Shown: one piece after another, positions 23,272-64,000 of the stretch | How positions within the stretch are numbered: position 1 is the first letter of the stretch | Layout: each line of letters opens with the position of its first letter | From: Coprinus comatus | Lineage: Eukaryota > Basidiomycota > Agaricomycetes > Agaricales > Agaricaceae | Assembly (NCBI GenBank): GCA_034638255.1 | Contig: JAWPGT010000022.1 | Coordinates: 124,001-188,000 of the forward strand | Length of the DNA: 64,000 bases | Direction: 5' to 3' | Program-made: the position numbers and the translations under genes | Notes under the pieces: model-generated | Databases searched by the model: none | What the model was told of the DNA's origin: nothing | Seen by the model: the letters and a program-made list of their open reading frames with translations, nothing else

Positions 23272-24398
23272 CGAATGTTGATTCAATATAGCACGGTACC
23301 GTATAGGGATACGGCCGAAGATTCCGAGTGGGCGGATTGGCCATGGCATGAGACTCTTGGAGATGGCTTTCTTTCTGCCCGCTTCATCTGACTTTGATTC
23401 AAGGATTTCACTTTCAATCCTGGGTGTCAATGGAGGATACCGTTAACCATTACAGTTCTAATCTGTTTCGGTCTGTATCAAGTTATTATGTATTCATTAA
23501 TGAATATTGGTAATCAATTCGAGATTGTTTAAACTGTTGAACGCTGCATCAATGGAGGAGTTTTCAGGAGCGTCTATTTCGGATTCGGCGTGCTGTCAAG
23601 GAGTTGTTTGCCAAGACTATGACATCTTGGCTAATGCATGATATTTTGTGGATCAATTTCGGCTCTTGAAGAAGCGAGAAACATCAAGTCGGATTCACGA
23701 TATAGATGATAATCGTCTAGGATCATCTCCAACATAGACTGCTGCATAGTTCCCTGGATGCCAAGCGTTATATACTCCTTCAAATTAACACCCTCCATCT
23801 GTGTATGTGTTAGCATCAACCCTTGGGACCTGAATATTTGAATGGTTCCCCAGTTGACAGAATGTTGACAGTGGCGGTGCTAAATATAGATTCAATCAAT
23901 GGAGATCTCCCAGGATCTCCCTTAAGTTCAGGTGGCGTATGTAGATCTCTTGGCTTGTTTAAACGTTTAGACTTGGCACCGGCGGCAAGTTAAGATCATT
24001 CAATACTCGCCACAGCACGTCAAGAATCAAACATCTCAGCCACCGATTAAGTTGTGTTTATCAGTTTTAAAAAATAGCAATTTTAAAATAAATTGTCCCA
24101 TTGACCTCGGGTCACCCTGAAACCTCAAAGTGGAGAGAGCACTTGAAATCTTCCGCAGAGTTAGCAGAAAAGCAGAATCTCTCCGATATATTTCTTGATG
24201 TATCTTCAATCTATGCGAAAATAACAAAAGCTATCTTTTATCAGAGAGAGTCCGTACTCAACGGCAGTGGGCGCAAAGTTATGTTTACACTTTAAAAATC
24301 ATCAATCATTGGTATAGAGCATAAACGTGAGCTACTACAATTCATAATTCTATTCTAATATCATTCGATGTCGTCTCAGAATTATACCATTACCATTT
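23272..24398. other. Intergenic between convergent genes
   Basis: 1.1 kb. A minus-strand stretch at 23631-23819 (MEGVNLKEYITLGIQ, DDYHLYRESDLMF) may be a remnant exon but cannot be extended. Nothing else seen. Confidence 0.45.
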
Positions 24399-25898
24399 TT
24401 ATGAAATAGTTCCCATTGCATTAATCTTTGCAACATAAACCATTGTCTCCCCCAACACAACCAACCTGTTAGGTCCTGCAAAAACAACACTGGGAGCAAC
24501 ACCTCCAATGTAAAACTTTCCAAGCAACAATCCATCAGGATTCCAGACCTAAAATTTAAAACGACGTTAATATCCTGAAGTACGAGGGGAAGAGAAACAC
24601 GAACGTGAACACCATCACCAGAAGCTACATAAACATTTCCTTTTGAATCAATTTGAATGCCATCTGGAACACCTGAATCAACGAATGCAAAAGTCCGGCG
24701 ATTCTTGAATGTGAATGAACGTTCGTCAACATCGAATACATAGACAGTGGAGGGTTCTGTAGAATTACGACCGAGGAATCCAAGGAAACCTCCGGAGTCA
24801 CCGCTAGAGCGAAAAATTATTACGAATGTCTGAAGTTATTTTTGAAAAAAAGTTTACATATAGACTGTCTTGCCGTCAGGGGTAAAAGCGAGGCCGTTGG
24901 GTTTAGCAAATCCTGTGGCTACAATTCTTACTTCTTGTGTGTTGGGATCGACACTGTAGATTTGATTGGGGAGTAGAGGTAGATCACGGAAACGTAACAA
25001 GTAACCATAGCTACACATAGCATCGTCAGACAGCGACACAAGGAAGAGGAAGGCAGACATACTCAACATCGGTAAAGTAGAATCTACCATTCGTAGGGTG
25101 AACCTTGATATCATTAAGAGAATTGAATTGACGGCCCATGTAATTGTCCAAAATAATCGTGGAGTTATAGGGTGGCCTAGGATTGACGATTGCGACGGTC
25201 GGAGGAAGTGGACCACGACCAGAGTTGAGCAACACAAGTTTCCTTCGTATGGACCAGTTGCACCATTGGTCATTTGAATTGAGTCGGGTAAAGGAAGCTG
25301 TAGATGAAATTAGCTCAATTGAATACATAAATAGTTCTTAATGTGAAACCGCTTACCGCTGTCACCGTGACATTGATAGGATCTATTCCTGGGCTAGCCA
25401 CCCACTTCTCTTCGACCTCATGCATGCTAATGTTGAAATAATGATTGTTATGGAACAAGTCTGTATGTCCGTCGGGTCCACCAGCGTTACTGGCAAAGAA
25501 GAGCTCGTCATTCGCTGCGACGTATACTGGGGCTTCATGAGCAATTTGCCACTGATCCATCGGATTGCGAGCAACGAGTCGGAATGATGGGTTGTCTCCT
25601 AGAATCTCCAAGAAATCGGGATGGAATACTTGGAAAAATGGCCCAGAGGTGTTCGTAGGATTGAATCGATCGTCGTAGAAATCTTGTCGGTAGGTACCAT
25701 TTTGTGGCATAACCGCGAACGAACTAGGAGGTATGTACTATACGTGAGAAGTGAGTACAAGAGGTCGGCATAGTTGATGTAGGGCAAACATACCACCACC
25801 TGGGGAGGTAAATCGATCTGTCTCCCCTTCTTGCCTGTGGGGCTAGGTAGTGCATTAGCGACCACCACTAACAGCCCAAGGATGGCCAAGATCTTCAT
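24399..25898 (-). CDS. Secreted SMP-30/gluconolactonase-like protein, copy 1
   Basis: Six-bladed beta-propeller of the SMP-30/gluconolactonase/LRE family, likely a secreted metal-dependent lactonase. Start 25898, signal peptide ILAILGLLVVVANALP. Domain marks: HEAPVYVAANDELFFASN (the Glu of the family EGPxW motif), NSLNDIKVHPTNGRFYFTD, RFRDLPLLPNQIYSVDP, KPNGLAFTPDGKTVY, SGDSGGFLGFLGRNST, VDSGVPDGIQIDSKGN (metal-binding Asp), VWNPDGLLLGKFYIGG, and the end VLGETMVYVAKINAMGTIS with stop at 24401-24399. Six or seven exons; intron positions equal those of the copies at 51519 and 60553. A TATA box lies about 92 bp upstream. Substrate unknown; aldono- or aromatic lactones are hydrolysed by characterised fungal members. 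Confidence 0.85.
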
Positions 25899-46524: not shown

Positions 46525-47375
46525 ACATGAACTTTAACATGTTGCCTGTATAATGGGTAGTACGTTTCAGCATACCGATAATAGTTTAGACCTGATGCTC
46601 AAAGTTTCTTTGACGTTGATTAAGAGTGTATTTACGGGTGGAGGACTTAAGTTGTTAAAAGTAAATCGGGTCCGCAAGAACCTCGTTTTCTCCATTACGA
46701 TTACCTTTCTCAAGAGGCCGGGATTAATTATCTGGGGGCAGCGGTTCATGGTATGTTCAGGTTCATGTTCTCGGGCTTGTTCTATCTTGTTTCCACAACA
46801 GCTTTTTCTTTTCACTGTCGTCATGGATTCTTTAATCCTTTCCTTGCTCAACACACACATGGCGCTCTATCTCCATCACAAATCTCGTGATTGATTCCTC
46901 CTCCGCTGACGGCTGTCCGAAGTAGTACAACATACACCACTCTTCGGATCCTGCATCTAACCTAGTCCAAAGCTCATATACATAGATTGCTTCTACTCCA
47001 ATCAAATCTATCTAGTAGACCGAATTAAGCTCCCAGTCCCACTAAAGAGAGGAGGACAATCCATCGAAATCATTGTTCTGGTTTATCGGTGACCTAAATT
47101 TAGCGGTTCTTACGTATACGATATTTTTAGTGATAGGGAGTGTCTGTGAAAACTGGATACTTTACATGCTGGATGTTATTTCATAAACGCTTGCACCACC
47201 GACGGAATCTAACTTCTAGGCCATGCCACCAGTAGTACACTATGTCGAAAACCCCAAGCTAACGCAAACTAAGTACGTTAACAATGATTCAGCAAAATGT
47301 ATAAAAGTAGAGACGGTTTCAGTCAACTCCCCTCAGTTCACGAACTACTTTCTACTTCCATCTATCACATTTACA
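46525..47375 (+). other. Intergenic
   Basis: 850 bp with the promoter of the fourth hydrophobin. Open frames at 46553-46894 show no domain. Confidence 0.5.
47300..47307 (+). promoter_or_regulatory. TATA box of hydrophobin copy 4
   Basis: TATAAAAG, 69-76 bp upstream of the start codon at 47376. Confidence 0.65.
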
Positions 47376-47879
47376 ATGTTCTCCAAACTCTTCACCATTG
47401 CAGTTCTCGCTACCGCAGTCGTTGCACAAGACACCAACAAGTGCAACGTTGGCTCACTTCAATGCTGTATGTTATCATCATTCGTTTAATCCTGTTCTTA
47501 CGAATACACTGATTCGCTAATATCATTACTATTTTCTTAACAGGCAAATCCGTTCAAAGCTCTAAGAGTGCTGCTGCTCAAAAACAAGCTGGCGTCGTCG
47601 GAGCTGCATTGGGTGCAGTCGAAGTTCTCGTCGGCCTTCAATGCAACCCAATCACCGGCCTCATTGGTGTTGGAGCTGGTGCAAACTGGTAAGTTTTAAC
47701 AGATTATTGCTATAATACAGTGATATTGATATTCTACCGTGTAGCAATGCCAACCCCGTCTGCTGCGAGAACAATAGCTTCAGTATGTGCTTGTTCTTTT
47801 TTTGTGTGCGGTTTTCTAACCGTTTCCTGTAGACGGTGTCATTGCAATTGGTTGCACTCCCATCAATGTCAACCTCTAA
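47376..47879 (+). CDS. Class I hydrophobin, isolated copy
   Basis: Four exons. Signal peptide KLFTIAVLATAVVAQ, then NKCN, QCC (split by an intron TGC T|GC), LQCNP, AN-C (TG|C split), PVCC and IGCTP: eight cysteines in hydrophobin order. The C-terminus NGVIAIGCTPINVNL is typical. Compared with the 3.4-6.1 kb cluster it has one more intron, in the first CC pair, and a different central region (AAAQKQAGVVGAALGAVEVL), so it belongs to a separate subfamily. It has a strong TATA box. Lies 170 bp from a tRNA gene on the other strand. Confidence 0.93.
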
Positions 47880-50118: not shown

Positions 50119-51284
50119 AGAAGGTTGGTTATAATTGGACTATGGTGGGTATGGGACAGGCCTTCGGTATAAGACCTAGGTCGTGATGGGGTCTCAGCAC
50201 TGACCGCATTACACCCTATAAGCCTGCAGGCCCGGTTGTATAGTGTATACTTATTTATATTCTAACTTTATTGCCAAGTGCGTTTTCTGTGTCAGAGCAA
50301 GAATCATTATACAATGTTGCTTTAAAGCACATTTTCGAGATAATATATTATGTTTTCTATGTATTAAACCATGTAATTTTTGAAACACCACATTTACAAT
50401 CCTTTTTTTTTCGTCGCGTGGCCGAGGATGAACGTTGCAGAATTTTGGTGTAAATCTCCCATCAATGGATATATTATTAAATTGATAAACCCTCCAATCA
50501 TTCTATGAGTGATTTTTTGCCAATTCTTTGGTGCATGGATGTTGGTGACATATTACTTACTTGGAAGGAAAGGGAAGAGAATCCATTGGGCGTGGGAAAA
50601 ACAGTCGGAAAGAGCCCGAGATATCATGTTCCGAAACACGTTGCAGTGCTACTTGTCCATTTTACTCTCTTCTACATCAATATTCGTGTACTAACTCAAT
50701 CTTAACTCGCAAATCAACAGAAGAACGCACTAACACTAGCGAGTCACTCTAAGCATCATGAGGGAAAGATCCATTCAATACCTGGCTCCCTGCAATATGA
50801 CACGAGTCCACGAGTCCGAGCCAACGAACCCGAAGTGCTAGTTAAAGACGCCTTCAGGGAATAGTAATACTAATAGTCATTACGAGACTGGCAGCAGATT
50901 TATTGGTTGTTTGTCTTGGATGGGTGTTGTGCTAGGGTTGGTGGGTTTCTTCCCTGAAGTCCTGAACGCTCATCCCTGTAAGTGATGTCTACTCTCCGGC
51001 GGCTTCCTAGGGCTTGGTGTCATGGGGTGATGCGCTGGCTGCACCTGAGTTTGCACCAGAAGACTCACGATGCAAGTTTGATGTAAGTCAAACAAAAATA
51101 AGATGTTTTTCACGACCCTGACATCGATCATTCCGGCGAATTGTTGTTCTAGATCCAAAATGCCTCGGATAATGTTCAAACCTATCCTTGTAAAGTCTAG
51201 GAGCACCGAGTGGTCTAGCTCTTGAAGTCATTAAATGAAACTACGATTATGCCGGTTTGCATTGGACACTTAGAAGTTAAATTT
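50119..51284. other. Intergenic left of the inverted duplication
   Basis: About 1.2 kb without a recognised gene. Similarity to the opposite arm (near 62232) begins at about 51285. Confidence 0.5.
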
Positions 51285-51425
51285 TTTTTGCTCTTCGTTA
51301 CTTCAGCTGTACTAGTACATGGAGTCAACCGGCAAAGAAAAATTTAGTCTTCTTTATCCCCAAATCTCAAGTAGACTCACATGCATACTCCTGATAAGAG
51401 CCATACCCAGTGAATGTTGGAGTGG

Positions 51426-51433
51426 TATATAAA
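51426..51433 (+). promoter_or_regulatory. TATA box of lactonase-like copy 2
   Basis: TATATAAA, about 90 bp upstream of the ATG at 51519. The mirror copy has a TATATAAT at the equal place. Confidence 0.6.
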
Positions 51434-51518
51434 GTCTCGTCTACCCTCCCAGAATATTCATTCTCAAACTAATTCATCTACTAAGCTCTTGGGTTTCTCG
51501 TTTTCATCTTACAACATC

Positions 51519-53014
51519 ATGAAGAGCTTTGGTGCCGTTCTATTGTCTATCACGCTTGCTTATGCACGTCCAAGCCCCAGAGACGATAACGAGACATCGG
51601 TCAAGTTACCTCCACAGACGGTGGTACGTTTGTTATCCATCGTCAGCCCCATATACTCACTCGCTTTCAGTATTTACCTCCTAAATCATTCGCAGTGATG
51701 CCAGAAAATGGTACCTACCGCCAAGATTTCTACGACAACCGATTCAACCCTACAAATACTACTGGTCCCTTCTTCCAAGTCTTCCATCCCGACTTCCTAC
51801 AACTTCTTGGAGATAACCCGTCCTTCAAACTCATTGCTCACAATCCGAATGATCAATGGCAGATTGCACATGAAGCACCAGTTTACATCGCAGAAAGTGA
51901 TGAACTCTTCTTTGCTAGTAATGCTGGTGGACCAGACGGACATACGGATTTGGAACATAATAACCATTATTTCAATATCAAAATGAAGGAGGTTGAAGAT
52001 AAATGGGAGACAACACCAGGAGCGGCACCTATCAATGTCACTGTAACGGCTGTCAGTGATTCTATGTAATTTATTCATTCCAGTTAACTGATTCTATAAT
52101 CTATAGCTACCCCTACCAAATCTGATTCAAATGACCAATGGTGCAACCGGTCCATACAAAGGGAATATGATATTGGTGAATTCTGGTCGTGGACCTCTCG
52201 CTCCTACTGTTTCACTCGTCAATCCCAAGCCACCTTATAATACTACGATTCTTTTGGACAACTATTATGGTCGTCAATTCAATTCTCTTAATGATGTCAA
52301 GGTGCACCCTACGAATGGCAGGATCTACTTTACTGATGTCGAGTATGTCTGTATTGTTTTCTATCAACTGAACTGACAATTGACGATTATGTGTATGTGT
52401 AGTTATGGCTACTTGTTGCGTTTCCGTGATCTACCTCTACTCCCCAACCAAATCTACAGTGTTGATCCCGAGACACAAGAAGTACGAATTGCAGCAACAG
52501 GATTTTCTAAACCCAATGGTCTCGCTTTTACCCCTGATGGCAAGACAGCCTATATGTAAGCGGTTACAAAGATTATTTCAGACACTGGGATTAATTTATT
52601 TTTGTTGTTAGTGGTGATTCTGGAGGATTCCTCGGATTCCTTGGTCGCAATTCGACAGAGCCCTCTGCGGTCTATGCGTTTGATGTTGATGAAAGCACAC
52701 ACATCTTGACGAATCGCAGGGTGTTTGCATTTGTCGATTCTGGTGTTCCGGATGGGATCCAAATTGATTCAAATGGAAATATTTATGTTGCTAATGGAGA
52801 TGGTGTTCATGTTCGTATCCATGTTCCCGTTATTCTTCAAATTTCTAATCTGAACTATCTCTAGGTCTGGAATCCTGCAGGAATGCTACTTGGAAAATTC
52901 TATATCGGAGGCGTTGCTCCCAGTGTTGTATTCGCAGGACCTAACAGGTTGGTTGTATTGGGAGAGACAATGGTATACGTTGCACAGATTAATGCAACGG
53001 GTACCATTTCATGA
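51519..53014 (+). CDS. Secreted SMP-30/gluconolactonase-like protein, copy 2
   Basis: Start ATG 51519, signal peptide SFGAVLLSITLAYARPSP. Exon 2 begins YLPPKSFAVMPENGTYRQ. Family motifs as in copy 1: HEAPVYIAESDELFFASN, NSLNDVKVHPTNGRIYFTD, LLPNQIYSVDP, KPNGLAFTPDGKTAY, SGDSGGFLGFLGRNST, VDSGVPDGIQIDSNGN, VWNPAGMLLGKFYIGG, VLGETMVYVAQINATGTIS. Stop TGA 53012-53014. The protein part from MPENG to DSM in exon 2 is identical to copy 3, and the following intron has no differences I could find, while exon 1, intron 1 and the promoter differ clearly. Convergent with the small secreted gene on the minus strand, with 286 bp between the two stops. Confidence 0.87.
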
Positions 53015-53300
53015 ATCGGATATTTCTGAAAACAACGACTTTAGAATTTAGAAGACAATTATGTATGTACGATTAAGACAAAAGTAGTACACCGATACTT
53101 CTCTTGAATATTTTTAACGAATAAATTTTACTATTTCTACCGGTTACATACCATGTTCATATTGAATGCTCGAAAAGTGCAGAAAAGCCAGCATGTCAAA
53201 GGTTGCATGTATATTGCATAGAAGATAAACCAATATATTCATATACAACACAAAGAGAAATAGTCCACAACTTTTTCCTTCCAAAGAGCCAGCTCAGACT

Positions 53301-53935
53301 CTAGAAGTTGGTGCTGCAATCACCATCATTAGGATCAATTGCAAACAAGAAAGGAGCATTGGGGTTAATCTTTCCCCTTCCACCCTGATAAGAAAAGATA
53401 AACATATCAGTCTCTTTTGATGTTCAAGATTGTGAAGAATCAAGATACTTACGGTTGGGCATCTGTCAACAGCCGTTCTGAGGACAGTCTTACAGTTAGC
53501 ATTGCTAGCGCTAATAGGGCTTCCTCCATTATTAGTATTGAAAACGGTGAAGTCGCCTGAAACCCCGGAAAACGTCAGGGATTTTGTTTAACTGGATGAA
53601 TATCAATATGCTTACATCTGTGACCGTTGGCTACGTAGCAGCGTTGGCCATTGTCTCTGGGGCGGTACTAACGATGTAGTTGAGCTATGAAAGCAGTAAC
53701 AGGATATAAATGTGACTCACAAGGTTGGGAGTAAGAGTGTTGCAGAAGTCGTCAATGTAGCGAGCACAGGAAGCAACATCATTGTTCCCGAAATTATCAT
53801 AACATGAAAAAGGGTTTTGAGCTAAAACACCAGCAGCAACGGCGAGGACGGTGAACTGGTAGATGTTTTATTAATAAGAATGAAAGATACAGTGAGCTGA
53901 AGTTGAGGAGAACGTACAATCTTGGTGGAGATCAT
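53301..53935 (-). CDS. Small Cys-rich secreted protein, Y3-lectin-like, copy 1
   Basis: Start 53935. A five-residue-plus first exon (MISTKI) is followed by the rest of the signal peptide (FTVLAVAAGVLAQ) and the mature part: SCYDNFGNNDV, CARYIDDFCNTLTPN, RPRDNGQRCYVANGHRC, DFTVFNTNNGGSPI, NCKTVLRTAVDRCPTGGRG and FLFAIDPNDGDCSTNF. Eight cysteines and no membrane helix after the signal. The pattern C-Y..., F-I/Y-D-D-F-C, GGxGK...F...DPN-G-C resembles the small glycan-binding Y3-type proteins of mushrooms; this is from memory of the family and is tentative. Five exons. Mirror copy at 59650. TATAAAG lies about 65 bp upstream. Confidence 0.75.
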
Positions 53936-53997
53936 TGTGTAGTTTTAGAAGTCGAGATGGGGATTTCGAACTGCTGGATATCTAACTTTCTGCCTGG

Positions 53998-54004
53998 CTT
54001 TATA
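53998..54004 (-). promoter_or_regulatory. TATA box of small secreted gene copy 1
   Basis: TATAAAG on the minus strand, 63 bp upstream of the ATG at 53935; conserved as TATAAAAG in the mirror copy. Confidence 0.6.
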
Positions 54005-54220
54005 CCTTCCCGTAGACTCTTAATCCCGGCATTTACTATTCAAAATCATTTTCATTTTCGAGATACTAAAAAAAGAGCACCAGCTGCCAACTAAGAAGTT
54101 CAGAGGTGAAACTCTACTAACTGTCTTGAGCGAATTTCAGGGCCCCGTAGTATTGTGCGGCGTTCAGTTCGGTCCATTTTTGACAGTGGTTATGGTTCTG
54201 TGCTATTGAAAGGGACGTAG

Positions 54221-55430
54221 TAGCAAAGATCTTGAAAAAAAAACAATAGAGTCAGTGCACTCAGGTAATCAACTTGTATCCCTATTCAAAAAAACGATTG
54301 TTTATGTAGTGACTATAATCTAATTATCCACCGCTCCGAAAGCTATAAAGTTACCCGTACTACCTCAGCTCGTACTTGACGTAATGAAATCAACCCGTAG
54401 CATGAATTAAAATACCACACTTCAAGGGAACCGAATTGTTCGATCAATGACGGTAGGTTAATCAATGATTTTCAACGTTTCAACGTTTTTTGGAGAAAGT
54501 CTTCTAGTGAGTAGGCCCAAGAATTGCTGAACGATTTCGGGTTGATTTCGAATTTTTTGGGCTGGTTATGGCGTTAAAAATCCACTTAACACCAGGCGAG
54601 GCGACACCAGGCAGTGTAAGGTCGTACTAATAATACCCTTCATAACTAAGTCCGAGACACGTGGTCCCTGCATGATCCGATTGATACAGTGCTTCTGGCG
54701 CAAGTCTGCTTTTTAGATGAGATTGAAGTTGATGTTGGCAGTCAGTGGCCGCGCTGCGGCGCGCTTTTTTTCCCCTCGTGGCTGACGAAACATAAAAGTA
54801 TGGAATACGCAGGATTCGATACCTAAAGTAGGCCTCCCATGTCAGGAAGACCAACACCCACATTTCTACTGGTAAGCGTTCTCTAAGACTTGCTGATAAA
54901 TGTGGTATTTTACACCGTATATTCGGCAGTTTTAAGTTGCTGAAAGGTATTCTTCAATTACTTACTCGTTACTTACTATGCCGTGACTCAAGCTTCAATT
55001 ATGTAGCCGCCGTAGTTCGTTAGTACCCGTGAAATTCCATTCAGGATTCATTCCAGAATGTCAAATTATGGGGCGGACTCGCAATTCGCCCACCCACCTT
55101 ACCTTATATTGATATATTACCTATGCAGTTCTTTTGAATGTCTGAGTGGCCGTGTCAAGCCGCGAGTCTAGCAGAGTCGCCACACAGATGGCACACCCAC
55201 CCTCTCGCGATCTCTTCAACTCCCACTTCCCGGTACTAGTGTGAGTTTTTTGGGTATACGGTAGCGAAAATCTTCAGATTAAAAGAAGAAAAAGAGATTA
55301 TTAGAGTATGTTGTAAGTACTACATGTGTTGAATAAAGGCTATATATAACATGTATAAACTTGTGGATCTGACAATTACACAAATTATAAAAACGAAGAA
55401 CATAAAGAAGTAAATTCGTCTTTCATGTCT
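54221..55430. other. Intergenic in the spacer of the inverted duplication
   Basis: 1.2 kb. No gene supported on either strand; AT-rich with scattered GC stretches. Confidence 0.5.
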
Positions 55431-56633
55431 TTAGGCCTTTGCAGCTGATTTCTTGGCGTTCTTTTTCTTTGAAGGAGTGTTGGGGGTCGTAGTGTTAGCC
55501 TCGCTGGTAGTATTGTTAATGATGCTCTTCCCACTACCAACAACCTTAGCTTCCCAAGCACCAATCAAATGGGTGTTATAGACTCTCAATCCAAAAAGTG
55601 AAGATAATATGAAGGCACTTAACGCTCTAGCTTCAGTAGCGCTCAGGCTTGTAGGGATAAATGAGTTGTTACTTGGGAAGACAATTTGCGCGATGTTGGA
55701 AATGATGGGGAGGTTGAGAATGGTTGGGACAAAACCTATGAAAGCCGGGTGGTTCATAGTAACACCATAAACAATTGCTATTTTAAAAAACAAAAGAAGG
55801 AAATATTAAGTCTTCTATCTCGAGCACATAAAATTAAAATACATACCAACAAGTGCTCCACCCCACACATCCAAACTTCCCCATAAACCGGCTTTCAAAA
55901 ATGGTGGGGTACTCATAGCCCAGGATTCGGACCAAGCACCAAGAGTACTAGCCGAAATGCCACCGCCTGCTGATGCTAATGCACCAATTATCATATGTGA
56001 AAGTGGAGAGGTGGTGTACAGTGGATTGATCTGTCGATAGGTGGGAGAAGAGGGCGAGAGTAGGGAGAGGGTACCGGTGACGGCCGCAGCCCGGACCGCA
56101 GCATCGATAGGGAATAATATTGTATCAAGGGTTGGTGGATGAAGGAGCTGTTGAATAGTTGTGGTAAGTCTGTGTTAGCAAAAGAAGAAAAAGAGGCTAA
56201 CTCACCGAAGGAAATAAAGAAAGAATAGTTGTGAGTACAAAGTGGACCGTGAGATAGTTTATCCAAGGTGCAAATGAATATAACATAGGAGGAGGGAGTC
56301 CTAGCATAAAATTGGACAGTAAACCACCTCCCCAGCACTGAATATATGTAAGAAGCGCCAGTAAACTCGAAGATAGGGGGCATACCATAATAAGATACCC
56401 AGCAATATACGTTCCCCAGGTCAATGTTGTTGGAGATTTACGTGCATTAGCCTGATAGGCAATAGAAATACTGTTGCGCCCATGAATATATTAACGCAGA
56501 ATGCAACACACGAAGGGACCAACCGAGCAGCATGGATGGTAGGAACTAGAGCAAAAGGAAAGAACGTGGGATGTACTTTTGTGGTTGTGATAAAGTGCAG
56601 AATTCCTGCAAATACTGGCAGTACTTCAGGCAT
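55431..56633 (-). CDS. Multi-pass membrane protein resembling TRIC cation channels
   Basis: Start 56633 (MPEVLPVFAGILHFITTT). Six or seven hydrophobic segments: FFPFALVPTIHAARLVP, ANARKSPTTLTWGTYIAGYL, the motif CWGGGLLSNFMLGLPPPM, APWINYLTVHFVLTTILSLF, SHMIIGALASAGGGISAS, LKAGLWGSLDVWGGALVAIV, ALSAFILSSLFGLRVYNTH. The G-G-G-x-L-S-N-x-x-L-G-x-P-P box followed by a W...helix, and the second Gly-rich box (ASAGGG), recall trimeric intracellular cation (TRIC) channels of ER membranes. The lysine-rich C-terminus PSKKKNAKKSAAKA also fits, as a cytosolic tail. I could not check alignment; another membrane family is possible. About six exons, one intron near 56470-56510 only about 41 bp. Head-to-head with the V-ATPase E gene. 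Confidence 0.55.
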
Positions 56634-56819
56634 TTTTAAGGTATACAGCTAATTGGTTGAACTTGATTTCGGAATGTGATATGACACGAAGACATACGTT
56701 GGTAGTGATGCCATGTAATTCCCACGGTCTGAGATGGCCAATTCGGGTCAGTAGGGAGTCGGACAATGCTGGACTCATAACACCATCCTCAGCAGCACAT
56801 AGCCTACTCTCCTCCAGCC
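56634..56819. promoter_or_regulatory. Bidirectional promoter region
   Basis: 186 bp between two start codons that point away from each other (56633 minus, 56820 plus). It must drive both the TRIC-like gene and the V-ATPase E gene. No TATA box seen, in line with housekeeping expression. Confidence 0.6.
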
Positions 56820-57795
56820 ATGTCCTCACGCGCACTCAACGACGATGAAGTTATCAACGAGATGAACAAGATGGTCCGTGAGCTGCTTATCTCAAATTCC
56901 CAATATCTAATCTCTCTATCCTTTCGTTTGCGTGAATAGGTGGCCTTCATCAAACAAGAGGCACTCGAGAAAGCTCGTGAAATAAAGGTCAAAGCAGATG
57001 AAGAATTTGCCATTGAAAAGGTCAAAAAATCACAGCTCAATCTACATCCTCCTATTCATCTCTTCCTACCTTAGGCCAAACTTGTCAAGCAGGAGCAACA
57101 AGCCATCGACGCCCAATATGACAAGAAACGCAAGGGCTCAGAGGTTTCTCAGAAGATGTCTGTTGCTTGTCCAACTTGTATCCCAAGACTCCACTAATCT
57201 CTTGGAAATAGTGCCCAATCAACCCTAACTAACCGATCCCGTCTAAAACTCCTCCACCGTCGCGAGGAACATCTCCAAGACCTCTTCACAAACTCTCGTT
57301 CTCAACTCACACAATTGGCCTCTTCAGACTCAGGAGCGTATGTCCAATTCCTCGAAGGCGTTGTTGTACAAACTTTCCTCCAACTTATGGAACCTTCCGT
57401 CATCATCCACGCTCGTAAGCAAGATATTGAAGCTGTACAGCAAGCTGCAGAGGCTGCATCGAAGACTTATAATGATCTTACCGGTTTGAATGTCTCGTTT
57501 GAAATCGAGCCCAGCCTGCCTGAGGATAGGTACGTTTTCTCCGTTAGCTCCTACCGCCTCCTGATTAATTTATGCTTCCCATAGCGCTGGTGGCATTGTG
57601 CTGGTAAATTCTGCCAAGAGAATCACTGTTGATAACACCCTTGACGAACGCCTGAGACTATTAGAGGATAGGGTGCGTTTTTCTGAAAACACATTTGTAT
57701 GACACATCAGCTTATCGTTTATGTCCTTGTAGATGTTGCCCGAGATCAGGAAGGATCTATTTGGTGCCAATGAAAACCGCAAGTTCTATACATAA
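56820..57795 (+). CDS. VMA4: V-type proton ATPase subunit E
   Basis: Peripheral-stalk subunit of the vacuolar H+-ATPase. Start ATG 56820: SSRALNDDEVINEMNKM, then VAFIKQEALEKAREIKVKAD, EEFAIEK, AKLVKQEQQAIDAQYDKKRK, the long N-terminal helix typical for subunit E. Then NRSRLKLLHRREEHLQDLF, FLEGVVVQTFLQLMEPSVII, IHARKQDIEAVQQAAEAASK, AGGIVLVNSAKRITVDNTL, ERLRLLEDRMLPEIRKDLFG and the end ENRKFYT. The stop TAA is at 57793-57795. Six or seven exons, including very short 5' ones. The domain order is complete. It lies inside the spacer of the inverted duplication. Confidence 0.95.
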
Positions 57796-59334
57796 GTTAC
57801 CCTCTGACAGTTTTCGTCATAATGTATACCTTCCCTTTCTTGGTCTTATAAATGCCCCTTCTAAGTCTGAATTGGATCTTACAAAAGACCACGAAACCCA
57901 GATGGTCTAAGGGTATTGGTTTACTGGGGCTTCGGTGGATCTACTTCAAAAGAACGTTAAACTTGAAGTTGGAAATGTTTATGGGGATTCGTAGGTTTAC
58001 CCTTTACTACGGCCGTCGGTCACTAGTAATAATGTGCGATATACTATCACGAAGTGAAGGCAAAAGCCACGTCAAGTTCCGTTCATGGATCATTCATTTC
58101 GAGCGAATAGATGGTTGCAAAACCCGTGGCGTATTTTGTCGAACATATTACTAGACTTGCTAAGTAGTCGCAATCAGCACTCTAACCCACTACCGCAGAA
58201 ATGCCATTGCGAATTGTGATACTACTCAGGCAATCATAGTCTCGCCGGAGGCAGGCGGTACTAAGAGTGGCATAAACTTGTACATGTGGTTGTTGGTACT
58301 AGCTCAAGGTCTCGTGTGTAGTCATAAGACGTAATATCCAGGTAAGAGACAAGCCGGGGGTATCAGAAGTAGTTGGCGGCAAAGCTCTAACCTAGACAGA
58401 TATTATTCTCAGTTAGAGTTCGGACATTGTGGGTCGTTAGTCTCAACAAAATCAACAAGTAGCAGCTACTATATTATAGAATTCTAACTGTTTATTGCTA
58501 GCATTATTTCAAGGCTCTAACAAATTGTCACTGGGTGTTTTAACATCAATCTTCTATTCATTTGGTTGATCCATGTGATCCGCGAAATCCATCTTTTTTG
58601 GACTTGGCACTGCCAGAAGTACTGTATCGGTGTGATCATAGAGCTTGAGCTTAAGCTACCTCTGAACTGCTTGGTATTGGATATTTATCGTCAGGAAATA
58701 GCGTCGATTCTTTAACTGGTTCTTTGAAAGGAAAGAAATGTCTTTTAAAGTTGAAGAAAGGCAAAAAAAAAAACCTTAAGAGTGCTAACTTATACATTAA
58801 ATCTAGAGCACCTGAGGCAAAAAAAAAAAAAGTCATTAGAAGACAAAGTCCGAAGAGAACTGGTTAAAGAATTTGCGGTCCCCCTGATGATTATGTTGAA
58901 TAACCTGACCACTGTTCGGCAGTTCTTTGAGAAGTTGAACTTGAGTACTAGAAGCTGACTAGAAGACATTCCCCGTCGGTGTGGCGTTGAATGGTCTACG
59001 GTTACTGACAGAATAATTCGGTACCTTTGAAATATAGTGTTTTTAATCCAGCACATGGGTCAATTTCATGATTTCATCACGTCAAGTTGGAAGTTGTTGG
59101 AAGCGCTGCGGCTGAGTAGGTGGCTTCTGGGAACTTTGCAGCCTCCGGAGCAGATTCGGAGCCTTCAAAGTACAGTACATATCACTGCGCACCCGATCGT
59201 TCGTTTTATGTTTTTAGGGGGTTCAAGGATCCAGTGTGGTTGATTTAAAAACCTTTAACTGTTGTTCAAGTTAATTAGTCCGGTGTATAGTGGGTGTTTT
59301 CACAGTAACATTAAAGCTTTGAATTTACTTACTG
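57796..59334. other. Intergenic in the spacer of the inverted duplication
   Basis: 1.5 kb, no gene supported. Contains an A12-type run at about 58819-58831 and an A9 run near 58765. The inner edge of the right arm begins at about 59335. Confidence 0.5.
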
Positions 59335-59576
59335 CTATTACGTCCCTTTCAATTAGAACCTTAACTACTGTCAAAATGGAAATGATTAATGAGCCCCGCG
59401 GGATACGAAGGCGCCCTGGAATCGTTCAAGGACTCTAGAAGTTAGACTGTCACTTCTGAACTTCTACGTACTACTTTAGTCAGGAGGCTGAGGTGTTCTT
59501 TTTTAGCTTCTCGAAATTGAAATTGATTTTAATTTTCGAATGGTAAATGCCAAGATATATAGTCTTTTATTGAGGG

Positions 59577-59584
59577 TATAAAAG
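59577..59584 (+). promoter_or_regulatory. TATA box of small secreted gene copy 2
   Basis: TATAAAAG, 66-73 bp upstream of the ATG at 59650. Confidence 0.65.
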
Positions 59585-59649
59585 CTGGGCAGAAAATCAG
59601 ATATTCAGTAGTTCGAAATCCCCATCTCGACTTTCAGAACTACTACACA

Positions 59650-60276
59650 ATGATCTCCACCAAGATTGTACGCCCTCCTCAACTTGCTTACCGCATCTTT
59701 TTAACCAATTCGTATTAATAATTCACCTACCAGTTCACCATCCTCGCCGTTGTTGCTGGTGTTTTAGCTCAGGACCCTCTTTCATGTTATGATAACTTCG
59801 GAAACCGAGACGTCGCTGCCTGTGCTCGCTTCATCGACGACTTCTGCGACACTCTTACTCCCAACATCGTGAGATTCATTATCCCGTTAGTTTCTTCATA
59901 ACTCAACTGCATCGTTAGTATCGCCCCAGAGACAACGGCCAACGCTGCTACGCAGTCAATGGACACAGATGTAAGATTTAGCATATTATTGGAATCAAAA
60001 TGCCTGACGTTTTACGGGATTGCAGGTGACTTCACCGTCTTCAACACTAATAATGGTGGAAATCCCATCAGGGCTAGCACTCCCAACTGTAAGACTGTCC
60101 TCAGAACGGCTGCTAACAGATGTCCCACCGTGAGTATCTTCACAACCTTGAACATCAAAAGACTTGAAGACTGATAATAATATGTTCATCAGGGTGGAAG
60201 GGGAAAGATTAACCCCAACGCTCCTTTCCTGTTTGCTATTGATCCTAATGATGGTGATTGCAGCACCAACTTCTAA
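59650..60276 (+). CDS. Small Cys-rich secreted protein, Y3-lectin-like, copy 2
   Basis: Mirror copy of 53301-53935 with the same five exons. Mini exon MISTKI, then FTILAVVAGVLAQDPLS, CYDNFGNRDVAACARFIDD, FCDTLTPNI, YRPRDNGQRCYAVNGHRC, DFTVFNTNNGGNPIRAS, NCKTVLRTAANRCPT, GGRGKINPNAPFLF, AIDPNDGDCSTNF and TAA at 60274-60276. All eight cysteines are kept. About ten amino acid changes against copy 1, mostly before the last exon; the last exon is identical in protein. Secreted, function tentative (glycan-binding Y3-like). Both copies look intact and have matching TATA boxes. Confidence 0.76.
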
Positions 60277-60552
60277 AGGCTGAGCTGGCTCTTTGGAAGC
60301 CAAAGTCATACAGTAGCCACTAGGATGTGAACTATTTATCCTTGCGTTGAATATGAATACTGGTTGGTCTTTTTTGATGAAATACGCAAAAAACTGAGGA
60401 GTAAGTATGCCGATCGATACAAGCTAGGTATATAACCGATTGAAAGGAAATTTTTATTCGTTAAAAATATCTAAGCGGTTAACATACTACTTTTATCTTA
60501 ATCAATACATAATTATCTTCTAATTCTAAAGTCGTTTTCAGAAATATCCGCT

Positions 60553-62044
60553 TCATGAAATGGTACCCTTTGCATTAATCATTGCAACGTAAACCATTGT
60601 TTCACCTAACACAACCAACCTGTTAGGACCAGCAAATACAACACTGGGAGCAACACCTCCAATGTAGAACTTCCCAAGTAACATTCCTGCAGGATTCCAG
60701 ACCTAGAGGCACACGTTAGCATTCTGAAGAATGAGAAGAGGATGAATACGTACATGAACACCATCCCCATTAGCAACATAAATATTTCCATTTGAATCAA
60801 TTTGGATCCCATCCGGAACACCAGAATCGACAAATGCAAACACCCTTCGATTCGTCAAGATGTGTGTACTCTCATCAACATCAAACGCATAGACCGCAGA
60901 GGGCTCTGTCGAATTGCGACCAAGGAATCCAAGGAATCCTCCAGAATCACCACTAACAACAAAAATTAATCAATGCCAGTGTCTGAAATAATCTATGTAA
61001 ACGCTTACATGTAGGCTGTCTTGCCATCAGGGGTAAAAGCGAGACCATTGGGTTTAGAAAATCCTGTTGCTGCAATTCGTACTTCTTGTGTCTCGGGATC
61101 AACACTGTAGATTTGGTTGGGGAGTAGAGGTAGATCACGGAAACGCAACAAGTAGCCATAACTACACATACACATAATCGTCAATTGTCAGTTCAGTTGA
61201 TAGAGAACAATGCAGACATACTCGACATCAGTAAAGTAGATCCTGCCATTCGTAGGGTGCACCTTGACATCGTTAAGAGAATTGAATTGACGACCATAAT
61301 AGTTGTCCAAAAGAATCGTAGTATTATACGGTGGCTTGGGATTGACGAGTGAAACAGTAGGAGCGAGAGGTCCACGACCAGAATTCACCAATATCATATT
61401 CCCTTTATATGGACCGGTTGCACCATTGGTCATTTGAATCAAGTTTGGTAGCGGTAGCTATAGATTATAGAATCAGTTAACTGGAATGAATAAATTACAT
61501 AGAATCACTGACAGCTGTTACGGTGACATTGATAGGTGCCGCTCCTGGTGTTGTCTCCCATTTATCTTCAACCTCCTTCATTTTGATATTGAAATAATGG
61601 TTATTATGTTCCAAATCCGTATGTCCGTCAGGTCCACCAGCATTACTAGCAAAGAAGAGTTCATCACTTTCTGCGATGTAAACTGGTGCTTCATGTGCAA
61701 TCTGCCATTGATCATTCGGATTGTGAGCAATGAGTTTGAACGATGGATTATCTCCAAGAAGTTGTAGGAAGTCGGGATGGAAGACTTGGAAGAAGGGACC
61801 AGTGGTGTTTGTGGGGTTGAATCGATTGTCGTAGAAATCTTGGCGGTAGGTACCATTTTCTGGCATCACTGCGAATGATATAGGAGGTAGATACTATATG
61901 CGAGTGAGTATATGAGATCGGCAATCCATAAGATAGACATACGACAGCCTGTGGAGGAAGTTTCAAGTTATCTATCTCTCCTCTGGGACTTGGTCGTGCT
62001 GACACAAGTATGATGGACAGCAGAACAGTAGTAAAGATCTTCAT
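60553..62044 (-). CDS. Secreted SMP-30/gluconolactonase-like protein, copy 3
   Basis: Start 62044, signal peptide IFTTVLLSIILVSARPSP, then RGEIDNLKLPPQAV. Motifs as in copy 2: HEAPVYIAESDELFFASN, NSLNDVKVHPTNGRIYFTD, KPNGLAFTPDGKTAYM, SGDSGGFLGFLGRNST, VDSGVPDGIQIDSNGN, WNPAGMLLGKFYIGGVA, VLGETMVYVAMINAKGTIS, stop 60555-60553. Differs from copy 2 in exon 1 (deletion of two or more residues and several changes) and at the C-terminus (AMINAKG versus AQINATG), but exon 2 is identical in protein. All splice sites are intact, so both copies should be functional. Convergent with the small secreted gene at 59650. Confidence 0.87.
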
Positions 62045-62107
62045 GATGCAGAGGGAAGCTCAGATGAGGTTGCGTTGAGAATGAAGATTCTGAGACGTAG
62101 ACCAAAC

Positions 62108-62115
62108 ATTATATA
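62108..62115 (-). promoter_or_regulatory. TATA box of lactonase-like copy 3
   Basis: TATATAAT on the minus strand, about 65-70 bp upstream of the ATG at 62044. Confidence 0.55.
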
Positions 62116-62232
62116 TCCTTCCAATGTTCATAGATCATTCTCATCGGTATATGTTATGACACAGAGAAAAGACTAGCGTTTGCCAAGCGGACTCCATGTA
62201 GGGCTGAAGTAACGAAGAGCAAAAGGCTTAAT

Positions 62233-63575
62233 ACAGAGCCTGTTGAACTCGACCGGTATAACCGTAGCTTCAATACTATAATTTGAGGAGCAAGAGGCAA
62301 CTCGGCGCTACTAATCCCTATATGGACAAGTTATGATTATCCGATTTCGATCTAGAAGTATTTATCAACTAGCATCAAGTGGTAGAAAACACATAACATA
62401 CCATTTATTTTGGATACAAGTCTGAAAGAATGAGGGGGATAATTCCAGCACCCATCTAAAATCTCGAAGTATCTGTTCTACCAGACAATGCATTGAAGGT
62501 GTCTGCCATGATGAAATATCTTGAAAGCACAATGATCCGAGTACACCAATGATGCGAATAATAAGTTCTTCCGTTGATTGGCGCGTTAATCGACGCGTCT
62601 TGATTGCCAGAGAAGTGCTAGTGAGGAGATTCGTGTTCTGGGCACAGGAGTTTGCCGGCATGTCTTCCGTAAGCCTTTGGAGCTGTGGAACGTGCGCGTG
62701 GACCGGATCGCACCGTAGACCGGAAGTCAATGCTGGGACGGTTAATGACTAGTTATAACTAGTTACGATAACCGGTTATTAGTTATAACTGTAGTTAAAT
62801 AACCCGTAACCATTGGTGTAGTATGGGAAAATTGATCGTAAGTCGACTTCAATGGCATCATCTTCTGCCCCCTCTTCAAGCTTCAAGCTTCACCATCGTT
62901 CCCCCATAAAGACCATAAAATTGCTTATCAATAATAAATATAATACATAATACACCTCATCGTCTAAAACTTAAACTTGCAGCTTGCTAAGAATCTCCAA
63001 TGATCATCATGCATGTAGGATGTAGCTACTGCCGAACAACATCATATGTCTACCAGAATCAAGGAGACTCGAGTCTCGAATGAAGTTGAGGTCCATCTTC
63101 TGTATCTTAATCTGGCAATAGCCCCAAACAAAGCTACTTTTGCACACGCACGTGGCGGTTAACGGTTATTGACTCTGGTTAATAACTATAGTCATTTAAC
63201 TAGTCATTAACCATAAGCAAATCCGAATTGGTTAGTAACTACACATCACTGCCGGAAGTAGACTCTCTTCAAGATCTGGGTAAAGTACATAAAACCCGGG
63301 GGTAATATTACTTTTAGATATCGAAATATTAGTAGTTTACCGTGAAGGGGACCGAGGCCAAATTCACTGAAATTTAATTGCAATGTTCTTGATATGGATG
63401 CGTGCGTTTGTTAATATCCTATCGTGCGTTAAAGGAGGCCAGAAGTTAAGACCTTCTTGTTAAAAATTATTACTATATCGGCCCAACTTCATGGACTGCA
63501 TTTTAAATTATACAAAGATACTTAAAGTGGATATGTTCAACTTTTCATTAGAAGAAAAAGAATTTTAGATTTAGA
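62233..63575. other. Intergenic with inverted GTTA-rich repeats
   Basis: 1.3 kb. Holds the inverted repeat pair at 62740-62755 and 63198-63213 and clusters of GGTTA/TAACC words around both. An open minus-strand frame at 62365-62730 has no recognised domain and no clear ATG. Confidence 0.5.
62740..63213. repeat. Possible non-autonomous element with inverted ends
   Basis: GGTTAATGACTAGTTA at 62740-62755 is the perfect reverse complement of TAACTAGTCATTAACC at 63198-63213. Both sides continue with further GTTAT/ATAAC words (62756-62815 and 63160-63197). 474 bp in total, no coding capacity. Looks like a MITE or a solo fragment of a larger element; no target duplication seen. Confidence 0.45.
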
Positions 63576-64000
63576 TTAGGAGATGAGACCCTTCGCAGCA
63601 ATCTTCGCCACGTAAACCATAGTCTCCGCCAAAATGACTAATCTACCAGGTCCAGCGAATACCAAATTAGGAGCAACCCCTCCGACGAAAAATTTACCAA
63701 GTAAAACTCCAGCAGGATTGAAGACCTATATAGGGAAAATTGAAGCACTTATGTTAGTTTGATAGGTAAATTGCGAAGGAGAGTACGAACTTGAACACCA
63801 TCGCCACAACCTGTATAGACATTTCCATTTGTATCAAGTTGAATTCCATCAGGGACGCCGGCGTCGACGTATGCAAAGGTCCTGCGATTCTTGAATCCAT
63901 GGGTAGTTTCATCTACGTCGAATGCGTAGATGGTTGATGGATCAGTGGAATTTCGACCAATGAATCCAATGAATCCTCCCGAATCACCACTTGGATGGAA
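63576..64000 (-). CDS. Secreted SMP-30/gluconolactonase-like protein, copy 4 (partial)
   Basis: Runs off the right edge; only the 3' part is present. Reading leftwards on the minus strand: SGDSGGFIGFIGRNSTDPS, IYAFDVDETTHGFKNRRTF, AYVDAGVPDGIQLDTNGN, VYTGCGDGVQV, then after an intron (about 63727-63790) VFNPAGVLLGKFFVGGVAP, NLVFAGPGRLVILAETMVY, VAKIAAKGLIS and stop at 63578-63576. Clearly the same family, but more diverged from copies 1-3 than these are from each other (GCGDG for ANGDG/ASGDG). Same strand as copy 3, so a tandem array may continue beyond the window. Confidence 0.82.

Follow-up and report, generated by a model that had tools for sequence, protein, structure and literature searches.

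The stretch of Coprinus comatus DNA analysed here (64,000 nucleotides of contig C22, hereafter the window) holds two mirrored copies of a convergent gene pair on either side of VMA4, the gene for V-ATPase subunit E, as the original prediction had it. Both arms carry a lactonase gene (PF08450) and a small secreted gene, Y3, arranged convergently and inverted between the arms. Arm A spans about 51150 to about 54230 (forward strand), its outer edge drawn from weak promoter homology and its inner edge from the reach of the inverted blastn match and the loss of identity beyond it; arm B (59323 to 62380, reverse strand) was delimited with inverted pairs, blastn, and alignments. The spacer between them (54231 to 59322) is about 5.1 kb long, and the alignment fades at both of its edges.

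Arms, spacer, and gene content

Of the twelve inverted pairs in the window, 11 form a collinear series that begins at 51286-51312/62198-62224 and ends at 53939-54001/59581-59643; I3, the remaining pair, matches a different paralogue at 63.8 kb. The collinear pairs are joined by blastn into a single match (C22:175515-178225 versus 186048-183333; window 51515-54225 and 62048-59333; 84.7% identity over 2780 columns, E value of 0), which extends over introns and 3′ flanks and over promoters, that of Y3 included. The prediction of a continuous inverted match past the coding exons, with homology from the promoter flanks to the inner edge, is thus borne out, and the outer reach is slightly greater than claimed, since weak homology extends to about 51,150/62,380 (alignments judged by eye). 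Beyond about 54,230, identity between the arms drops to about 50% or less. The arms are inverted and match past the coding sequence, as in a palindrome-type repeat, but high identity does not hold over the full arm (about 1.1 kb at 97%, the rest at 62 to 92%). The two predicted arms of about 2.9 kb therefore stand as inverted copies and not as a single homogeneous repeat.

Within the spacer, the predicted VMA4 was confirmed as a multi-exon gene (56820 to 57795, forward strand; PF01991, E value of 1.6e-56 on the hand-spliced protein, start and stop codons checked). Its neighbor, a membrane-protein-like gene (55431 to 56633, reverse strand, exon limits approximate), is at most weakly TRIC-like, as a rough hand splice matched PF05197 at an E value of 0.056, below the Pfam cut-off, and its last exon alone gave no family match at E values up to 1 in a Pfam profile search; the predicted label is accordingly weak.

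Lactonase A (51519 to 53014, forward strand) was hand-spliced into six exons (51519-51623, 51671-52051, 52107-52342, 52403-52555, 52612-52810, and 52865-53011, then stop) with GT..AG introns, giving an open frame of 407 amino acids with a checked stop. It matches the SGL profile PF08450 (E value of 1.1e-24; 87.8 bits against a curated cut-off of 26.3), and the protein search placed a protein of Collybia nuda first (58% identity over 92% of the query). By eye, its N terminus resembles a secretion signal, and N-D, P-N-G, and D-G motifs, which we take to be metal or active-site positions, align with 3dr2. Lactonase B (60553 to 62044, reverse strand) has the same six exons, with limits transferred from A by alignment, and an open frame of 406 amino acids (start and stop checked). 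At least eight lactonase copies were detected in the genome by DNA similarity, seven of them on the same contig. A mobile element with terminal inverted repeats is not favored, as the arms hold members of this wider gene cluster.

The Y3-like gene of arm A (53301 to 53935, reverse strand; PF22803 match) has five exons and an open frame of 130 amino acids, and that of arm B (59650 to 60276, forward strand) also has five exons and 130 amino acids (PF22803, E value of 1.9e-30, 105.8 bits against a cut-off of 28; PDB 5v6i, E value of 2.9e-73). On sequence likeness, the small secreted gene of the arms is Y3, the glycan-binding tobacco mosaic virus (TMV) inhibitor of C. comatus.

Uneven identity between the arms

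Identity between the arms is concentrated in a core (51,690 to 52,790) that is 97% identical, introns included. Eleven 100-column windows from 51,688 to 52,787 show 96 to 100% identity, against 64 to 72% in the four windows just upstream and 62 to 92% in the thirteen downstream, to 54,047. The steps are sharp: at intron 1, identity goes up from about 72% to 96%, and it declines again in the 100-column window starting at 52,788. With gaps counted, the arms differ at 16 of 49 columns in intron 1 and 18 of 54 in intron 5, versus 7 of 171 in introns 2 to 4 combined. Introns lying beyond the lactonase core show differences of 17 to 30% between the arms. Since introns share the identity step, protein constraint is not the cause of the near-identical core, nor is the core a slowly evolving region, because there A and paralogue D are only about 64 to 89% identical (80-column windows). 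Introns and synonymous sites were homogenized along with the exons.

In favor of a recent inverted duplication that involved no conversion, with divergence running faster away from the lactonase core, are the 97% identity of that core and purifying selection on the protein. Such selection is indicated by the substitution rates for exons 2 to 5 (A-B dN of 0.0013 and dS of 0.111, NG86). However, the difference between the arms amounts to a third in introns 1 and 5 but to 4% in introns 2 to 4 (gaps counted), and in the segments on either side of the core (P and R below) the arms are not nearest relatives, so we give this explanation almost no credence; the intron contrast likewise rules out a young palindrome. 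The Y3 genes of the two arms are identical at 114 of 130 residues, with a dS of 0.354 (NG86).

The uneven identity also bears on recombination. A good substrate would be mainly the stretch of about 1.1 kb, because only there are the arms near-identical, the flanking windows being at 62 to 92%. Recombination at the repeats had been predicted, and its traces are present at the locus, but they involve a third copy outside the window and are explicable by conversion without inversion.

A third copy and a mosaic of segments

This third copy, C, lies about 5 kb past arm B, just outside the window, with its start codon at C22:191,640, 5.6 kb from that of B. Over part of the gene, it is nearer to each arm than the arms are to each other. 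For exons 2 to 5, dS (NG86) is 0.061 for A-C and 0.086 for B-C.

Three adjacent segments of arm A (forward strand) show different relationships. In segment P (51185 to 51670; promoter, exon 1, and intron 1; B partner about 62,326-61,894), B and C are nearly identical and A has diverged; over 188 gap-free columns of promoter and 5′ untranslated region, B and C have one mismatch, and A is unlike both at 66. In segment K (51690 to 52540), the shared core, all three copies are close. Segment R (52545 to 52960) begins at the end of exon 4 and takes in most of exon 6; here it is B that has diverged, A and C being nearly identical, and intron 5 differs at 1 of 54 columns between A and C versus 19 of 54 between B and C.

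Trees of P and R conflict. B and C form a clade in P (100/99; A+B rejected with a p-AU of 0.0001, A+C with 0.0003) and A and C in R (98/97; A+B rejected with a P value of 0.0086, B+C with 0.032), so that A+B as nearest relatives is rejected on both sides of the core, although segment limits were picked after the site pattern was known and these P values thus overstate the conflict. For K, the best tree pairs A with C (85/87), and neither A+B (P = 0.138) nor B+C (P = 0.108) is rejected; in the 3′ segment (end of exon 6 and 3′ flank), every pairing is compatible and none is rejected. Sites common to copies fall into nonrandom runs: 211 informative sites, counted in segment P from 51,250, group into 45 runs where shuffling gives 103.7 on average (none of 20,000 shuffles went as low), and the 83 sites from 51,650 onward form 33 runs against 48.8 expected (1 of 20,000 as low), in a test that assumes independent sites.

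This flank pattern, with C like B at the 5′ end and like A at the 3′ end, is also what would be expected if C had been copied from the gene then at B and a later crossover between the A and B cores had turned the VMA4 spacer around and exchanged the 3′ halves of the two genes. The cores are near-identical over about 1.1 kb and inverted, and such an inversion would be cheap, since it would leave the two recombinant genes intact. Set against this, inversion with conversion predicts that A and B are closest in the core, where the best tree instead pairs A with C (A+B not being rejected); toward the end of exon 6, within about its last 50 bases, some sites go back to linking B with C; and homogenization of the A and B cores would be needed anyway, which makes the crossover an extra event. 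We regard this history, with its inversion of the VMA4 spacer, as possible but unlikely. A little less likely again is the stronger version, in which the spacer flipped in this lineage through a lactonase-core crossover that swapped promoters and signal peptides and is still flipping; if so, isolates would differ in orientation and in the pairing of promoter and 3′ end.

An assembly artefact deserves consideration, whether through copies that were collapsed, wrongly joined, or polished against one another or through the mixing of dikaryon haplotypes, as the data come from a single genome assembly of 134 contigs, and consensus or haplotype-mixing errors could imitate part of the mosaic. Yet each copy is set in flanks of its own and shows differences peculiar to it, the identity steps fall within individual genes where the contig is unbroken, and polishing would hardly homogenize copies 30% apart unless they were already close. 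We consider it very improbable as an explanation of the whole, if marginally less so than a recent duplication without conversion.

Probable gene conversion among three copies

The reading that we favor, and hold to be probable, is an old inverted duplication in the lactonase cluster that was later overwritten by overlapping gene conversion tracts among A, B, and C. What is seen directly is the inverted arrangement, the abrupt changes in identity, a mosaic over three copies, and segment trees in conflict; conversion as the process, and the order of events, we infer. Gene conversion among clustered paralogues is a process of known kind. The ancestral step would have been an inverted duplication of the convergent lactonase-Y3 pair within a larger secreted-lactonase cluster. 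Much later, nonallelic conversion among arm A, arm B, and copy C would have overwritten parts of the lactonase genes, one tract joining B and C from the promoter to the core and another joining A and C from the core to exon 6. The lactonase core of the arms would as a result look freshly duplicated, while the promoter of A, like the Y3 genes and the 3′ flanks, would keep its old divergence. The homogenized product would be a secreted-looking protein of the SMP-30/gluconolactonase family, a lactonase by family, and its residues 41 to 398 (A numbering) are the same in A, B, and C.

By our count, C as donor to both arms requires the fewest events. Differing columns in the core (51671-52540; A-C 13, B-C 17, A-B 20) fit C as a hub but are not decisive; with the majority of five paralogues as a crude outgroup, shared states there number six for A=C, four for B=C, and two for A=B. 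For a short stretch beyond the 5′ end of the tract, A, B, and C can still be aligned, as expected of a conversion tract that ends inside older homology. On account of that alignability, and of a 3′ flank of C that has diverged from both arms, we do not favor the view that C is just a recent copy of B. B and C are more alike in the promoter than in the core, which implies tracts of different age or constraint on the promoter. At the 3′ end of exon 6, six sites again pair B with C, which two tracts do not predict; compared with five paralogues, three look like A-only changes, two look like a state shared by B and C, and one is ambiguous, so that a further small tract or a chance pattern may lie behind them.

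On the conversion reading, the locus is a compact case in which exchange with an unseen third copy gives a long-standing inverted duplication the look of a recent one, which calls for care when dot-plots are read and duplications dated, and the lactonase trio would allow conversion tract length to be measured in a mushroom.

The locus was not found in the titles and abstract openings surveyed on Coprinus comatus, on inverted repeats with conversion, and on inverted paralogues, a survey that took in few subscription papers. The wtf genes of Schizosaccharomyces pombe are reportedly a clustered family reshaped by nonallelic gene conversion. The likeness lies in family members reshaped by conversion, and the difference in that the present case is a mushroom secreted-lactonase cluster with two of three partners in mirror arms. 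In Komagataella, mating-type switching proceeds by inversion (PMC11764356); both loci have a gene-bearing segment between repeats that could invert, but the present locus gives no evidence of inversion, still less of a programmed one. Yeast inverted repeats are described as undergoing arm homogenization and spacer inversion by template switching (PMC8604942), and they resemble the present arms in being made alike by exchange, with spacer inversion a possible by-product; those repeats are described as short, whereas the arms here are about 3 kb, with about 1.1 kb homogenized and a third copy involved. The published Y3 of C. comatus (R4HEK3; PDB 5v6i and 5v6j) is of the same family (PF22803), and the arm B copy is nearer to it (124 of 130 residues identical) than the arm A copy (111 of 130). 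The present genome, in contrast, has several Y3 copies, at least four on the same contig and a diverged one on contig C94. The locus thus places Y3, a mushroom protein whose structure is solved and for which cytotoxic and TMV-inhibiting effects are reported, in its genomic surroundings, and shows it to be one of a small family of which two members form a mirrored pair.

Mirror-image arms and their genes

The window covers positions 124,001-188,000 of C22, a 388-kb contig in a genome of 35.7 Mb and 134 contigs. The large mirror-image duplication around the V-ATPase E gene claimed in the original prediction is real, but its meaning is corrected here. The two arms, A and B, gave a single blastn match in inverted orientation (window 51515-54225 versus 62048-59333; 84.7% identity, 2,780 columns), with weaker promoter homology extending outward to about 51,150 and 62,380. 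Each arm pairs a six-exon lactonase gene (PF08450 profile match) with a convergent five-exon Y3 gene (PF22803 profile match); the reading frames of both lactonases and both Y3 genes are open. The lactonase has mushroom-type relatives (best match, 58% identity over 92%, among the best 120 of 729 matches). The spacer contains VMA4, as predicted, and a membrane-protein-like gene, for which the proposed TRIC label is weak. Elsewhere in the window, the end of an open frame (47223-47489) resembles, by sequence appearance, the start of a secreted, Cys-containing putative hydrophobin.

Uneven identity and a third copy

Identity between the arms was 96-100% in eleven 100-column windows (51,688 to 52,787; the lactonase core), 64-72% in the four directly upstream of 51,688, and 62-92% in thirteen downstream of the core, to 54,047. 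Lactonase introns followed the same pattern, with 7 of 171 columns differing in introns 2-4, 16 of 49 in intron 1, and 18 of 54 in intron 5 (gaps counted). Divergence (NG86) was dS 0.111 and dN 0.0013 for lactonase exons 2-5 and dS 0.354 and dN 0.063 for the Y3 pair, whose four introns differed by 17-30% (gap-free columns). The core lacks intrinsic conservation, because paralogue D is only about 64-89% identical to A across it (80-column windows). The last Y3 exon and 3′ flank (53273-53389/60188-60304) reached 94% identity, above most of the Y3 gene; either constraint or a minor conversion tract of its own could explain this.

A third lactonase, copy C, has its start at C22:191,640 and the strand orientation of A; it begins 3.6 kb past the window end and 5.6 kb from the start codon of B. 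It shares a 1.86-kb block with B (94.9%) and a 1.58-kb block with A (93.9%), and all three proteins are identical across residues 41-398 (A numbering). In 1,720 gap-free aligned columns (window 51250-53030 by A), A was odd at 141 sites, B at 51, and C at 19. These formed 45 runs (shuffled mean, 103.7; 0 of 20,000 shuffles as low), leaving out one site where all three differ; from 51,650 onward, 83 sites formed 33 runs (shuffled, 48.8; 1 of 20,000 as low). B matched C from the promoter to intron 1 (across the 188 promoter/5′ UTR columns, B and C differed at one, whereas A stood apart at 66), all three were close from there to about 52,550, and A agreed with C at about 52,550-52,960. At the exon 6 end, six sites grouped B with C again, three of which look like changes in A alone.

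Segment trees, which included the five other lactonase copies, had limits picked after the pattern was seen, so their p values are optimistic: the first segment (promoter to intron 1) joined B and C (100/99; A+B rejected, p-AU 0.0001; A+C, 0.0003) and the last (about 52,550-52,960) joined A and C (98/97; rejection at 0.0086 for A+B and 0.032 for B+C). In the middle segment A+C came out best (85/87) with no other pairing rejected, and the 3′ segment (exon 6 end and 3′ flank) gave a weak B+C (84/86; no alternative rejected).

Conversion or inversion

In the lactonase gene, 5′ and 3′ of the core alike, the arms are not closest to each other; C, outside the mirror, is nearest. The simplest reading is that an old inverted duplication of the lactonase-Y3 pair was later overwritten by overlapping conversion tracts, between B and C from promoter to core and between A and C from core to exon 6. 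If C donated to both arms, two events would be enough for the main pattern, and the summed core differences (51671-52540; A-C 13, B-C 17, A-B 20 columns) fit this without being decisive; that direction of transfer is not proven. The six exon 6-end sites are left over from the two-tract account. A crossover between the arms, flipping the VMA4 spacer, would also leave C resembling B 5′ and A 3′, but ranks second to conversion because it requires additional events for the homogenized core and perhaps for the exon 6 end. An A × C crossover, between direct repeats, would be expected to delete VMA4.

Lactonase and Y3 families

DNA similarity identified at least eight arm-type lactonases (A, B, C, D, F, G, and H on C22; E on C26); an exon-wise profile search concurred and added an SGL gene on C1. 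Frames are open in A, B, C, and E. The match to protein A shifts frame within exon 3 of D (window 24398-25859, minus strand) and within exon 2 of F (C22:197,996-199,338), so both look like decayed genes or sites of assembly error. Copy H perhaps also changes frame within an exon. Copy G (minus strand, about 70% identical to the arms) spans the right edge of the window, from 63580-64000 onward to C22:189,017.

The arm B Y3 protein shares 124 of 130 residues with the tobacco mosaic virus inhibitor Y3 of Coprinus comatus (PDB 5v6i). Together with the mushroom-type relatives of the lactonase, this points to Coprinus comatus or a near relative as the likely source of the DNA. The Y3 family looks sparse in one profile search, which reaches solely proteins sharing short exact words and returned 3 of 3,184 candidates (Y3 plus two proteins from Cyathus striatus). 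Two open, hand-spliced, five-exon Y3-like genes (C22:76,568-77,217 and C22:79,896-80,555) match the arm B copy at 76% and 79% identity, and a diverged one lies at C94:56,167-56,868. The recombination process at the locus is of an already known kind.
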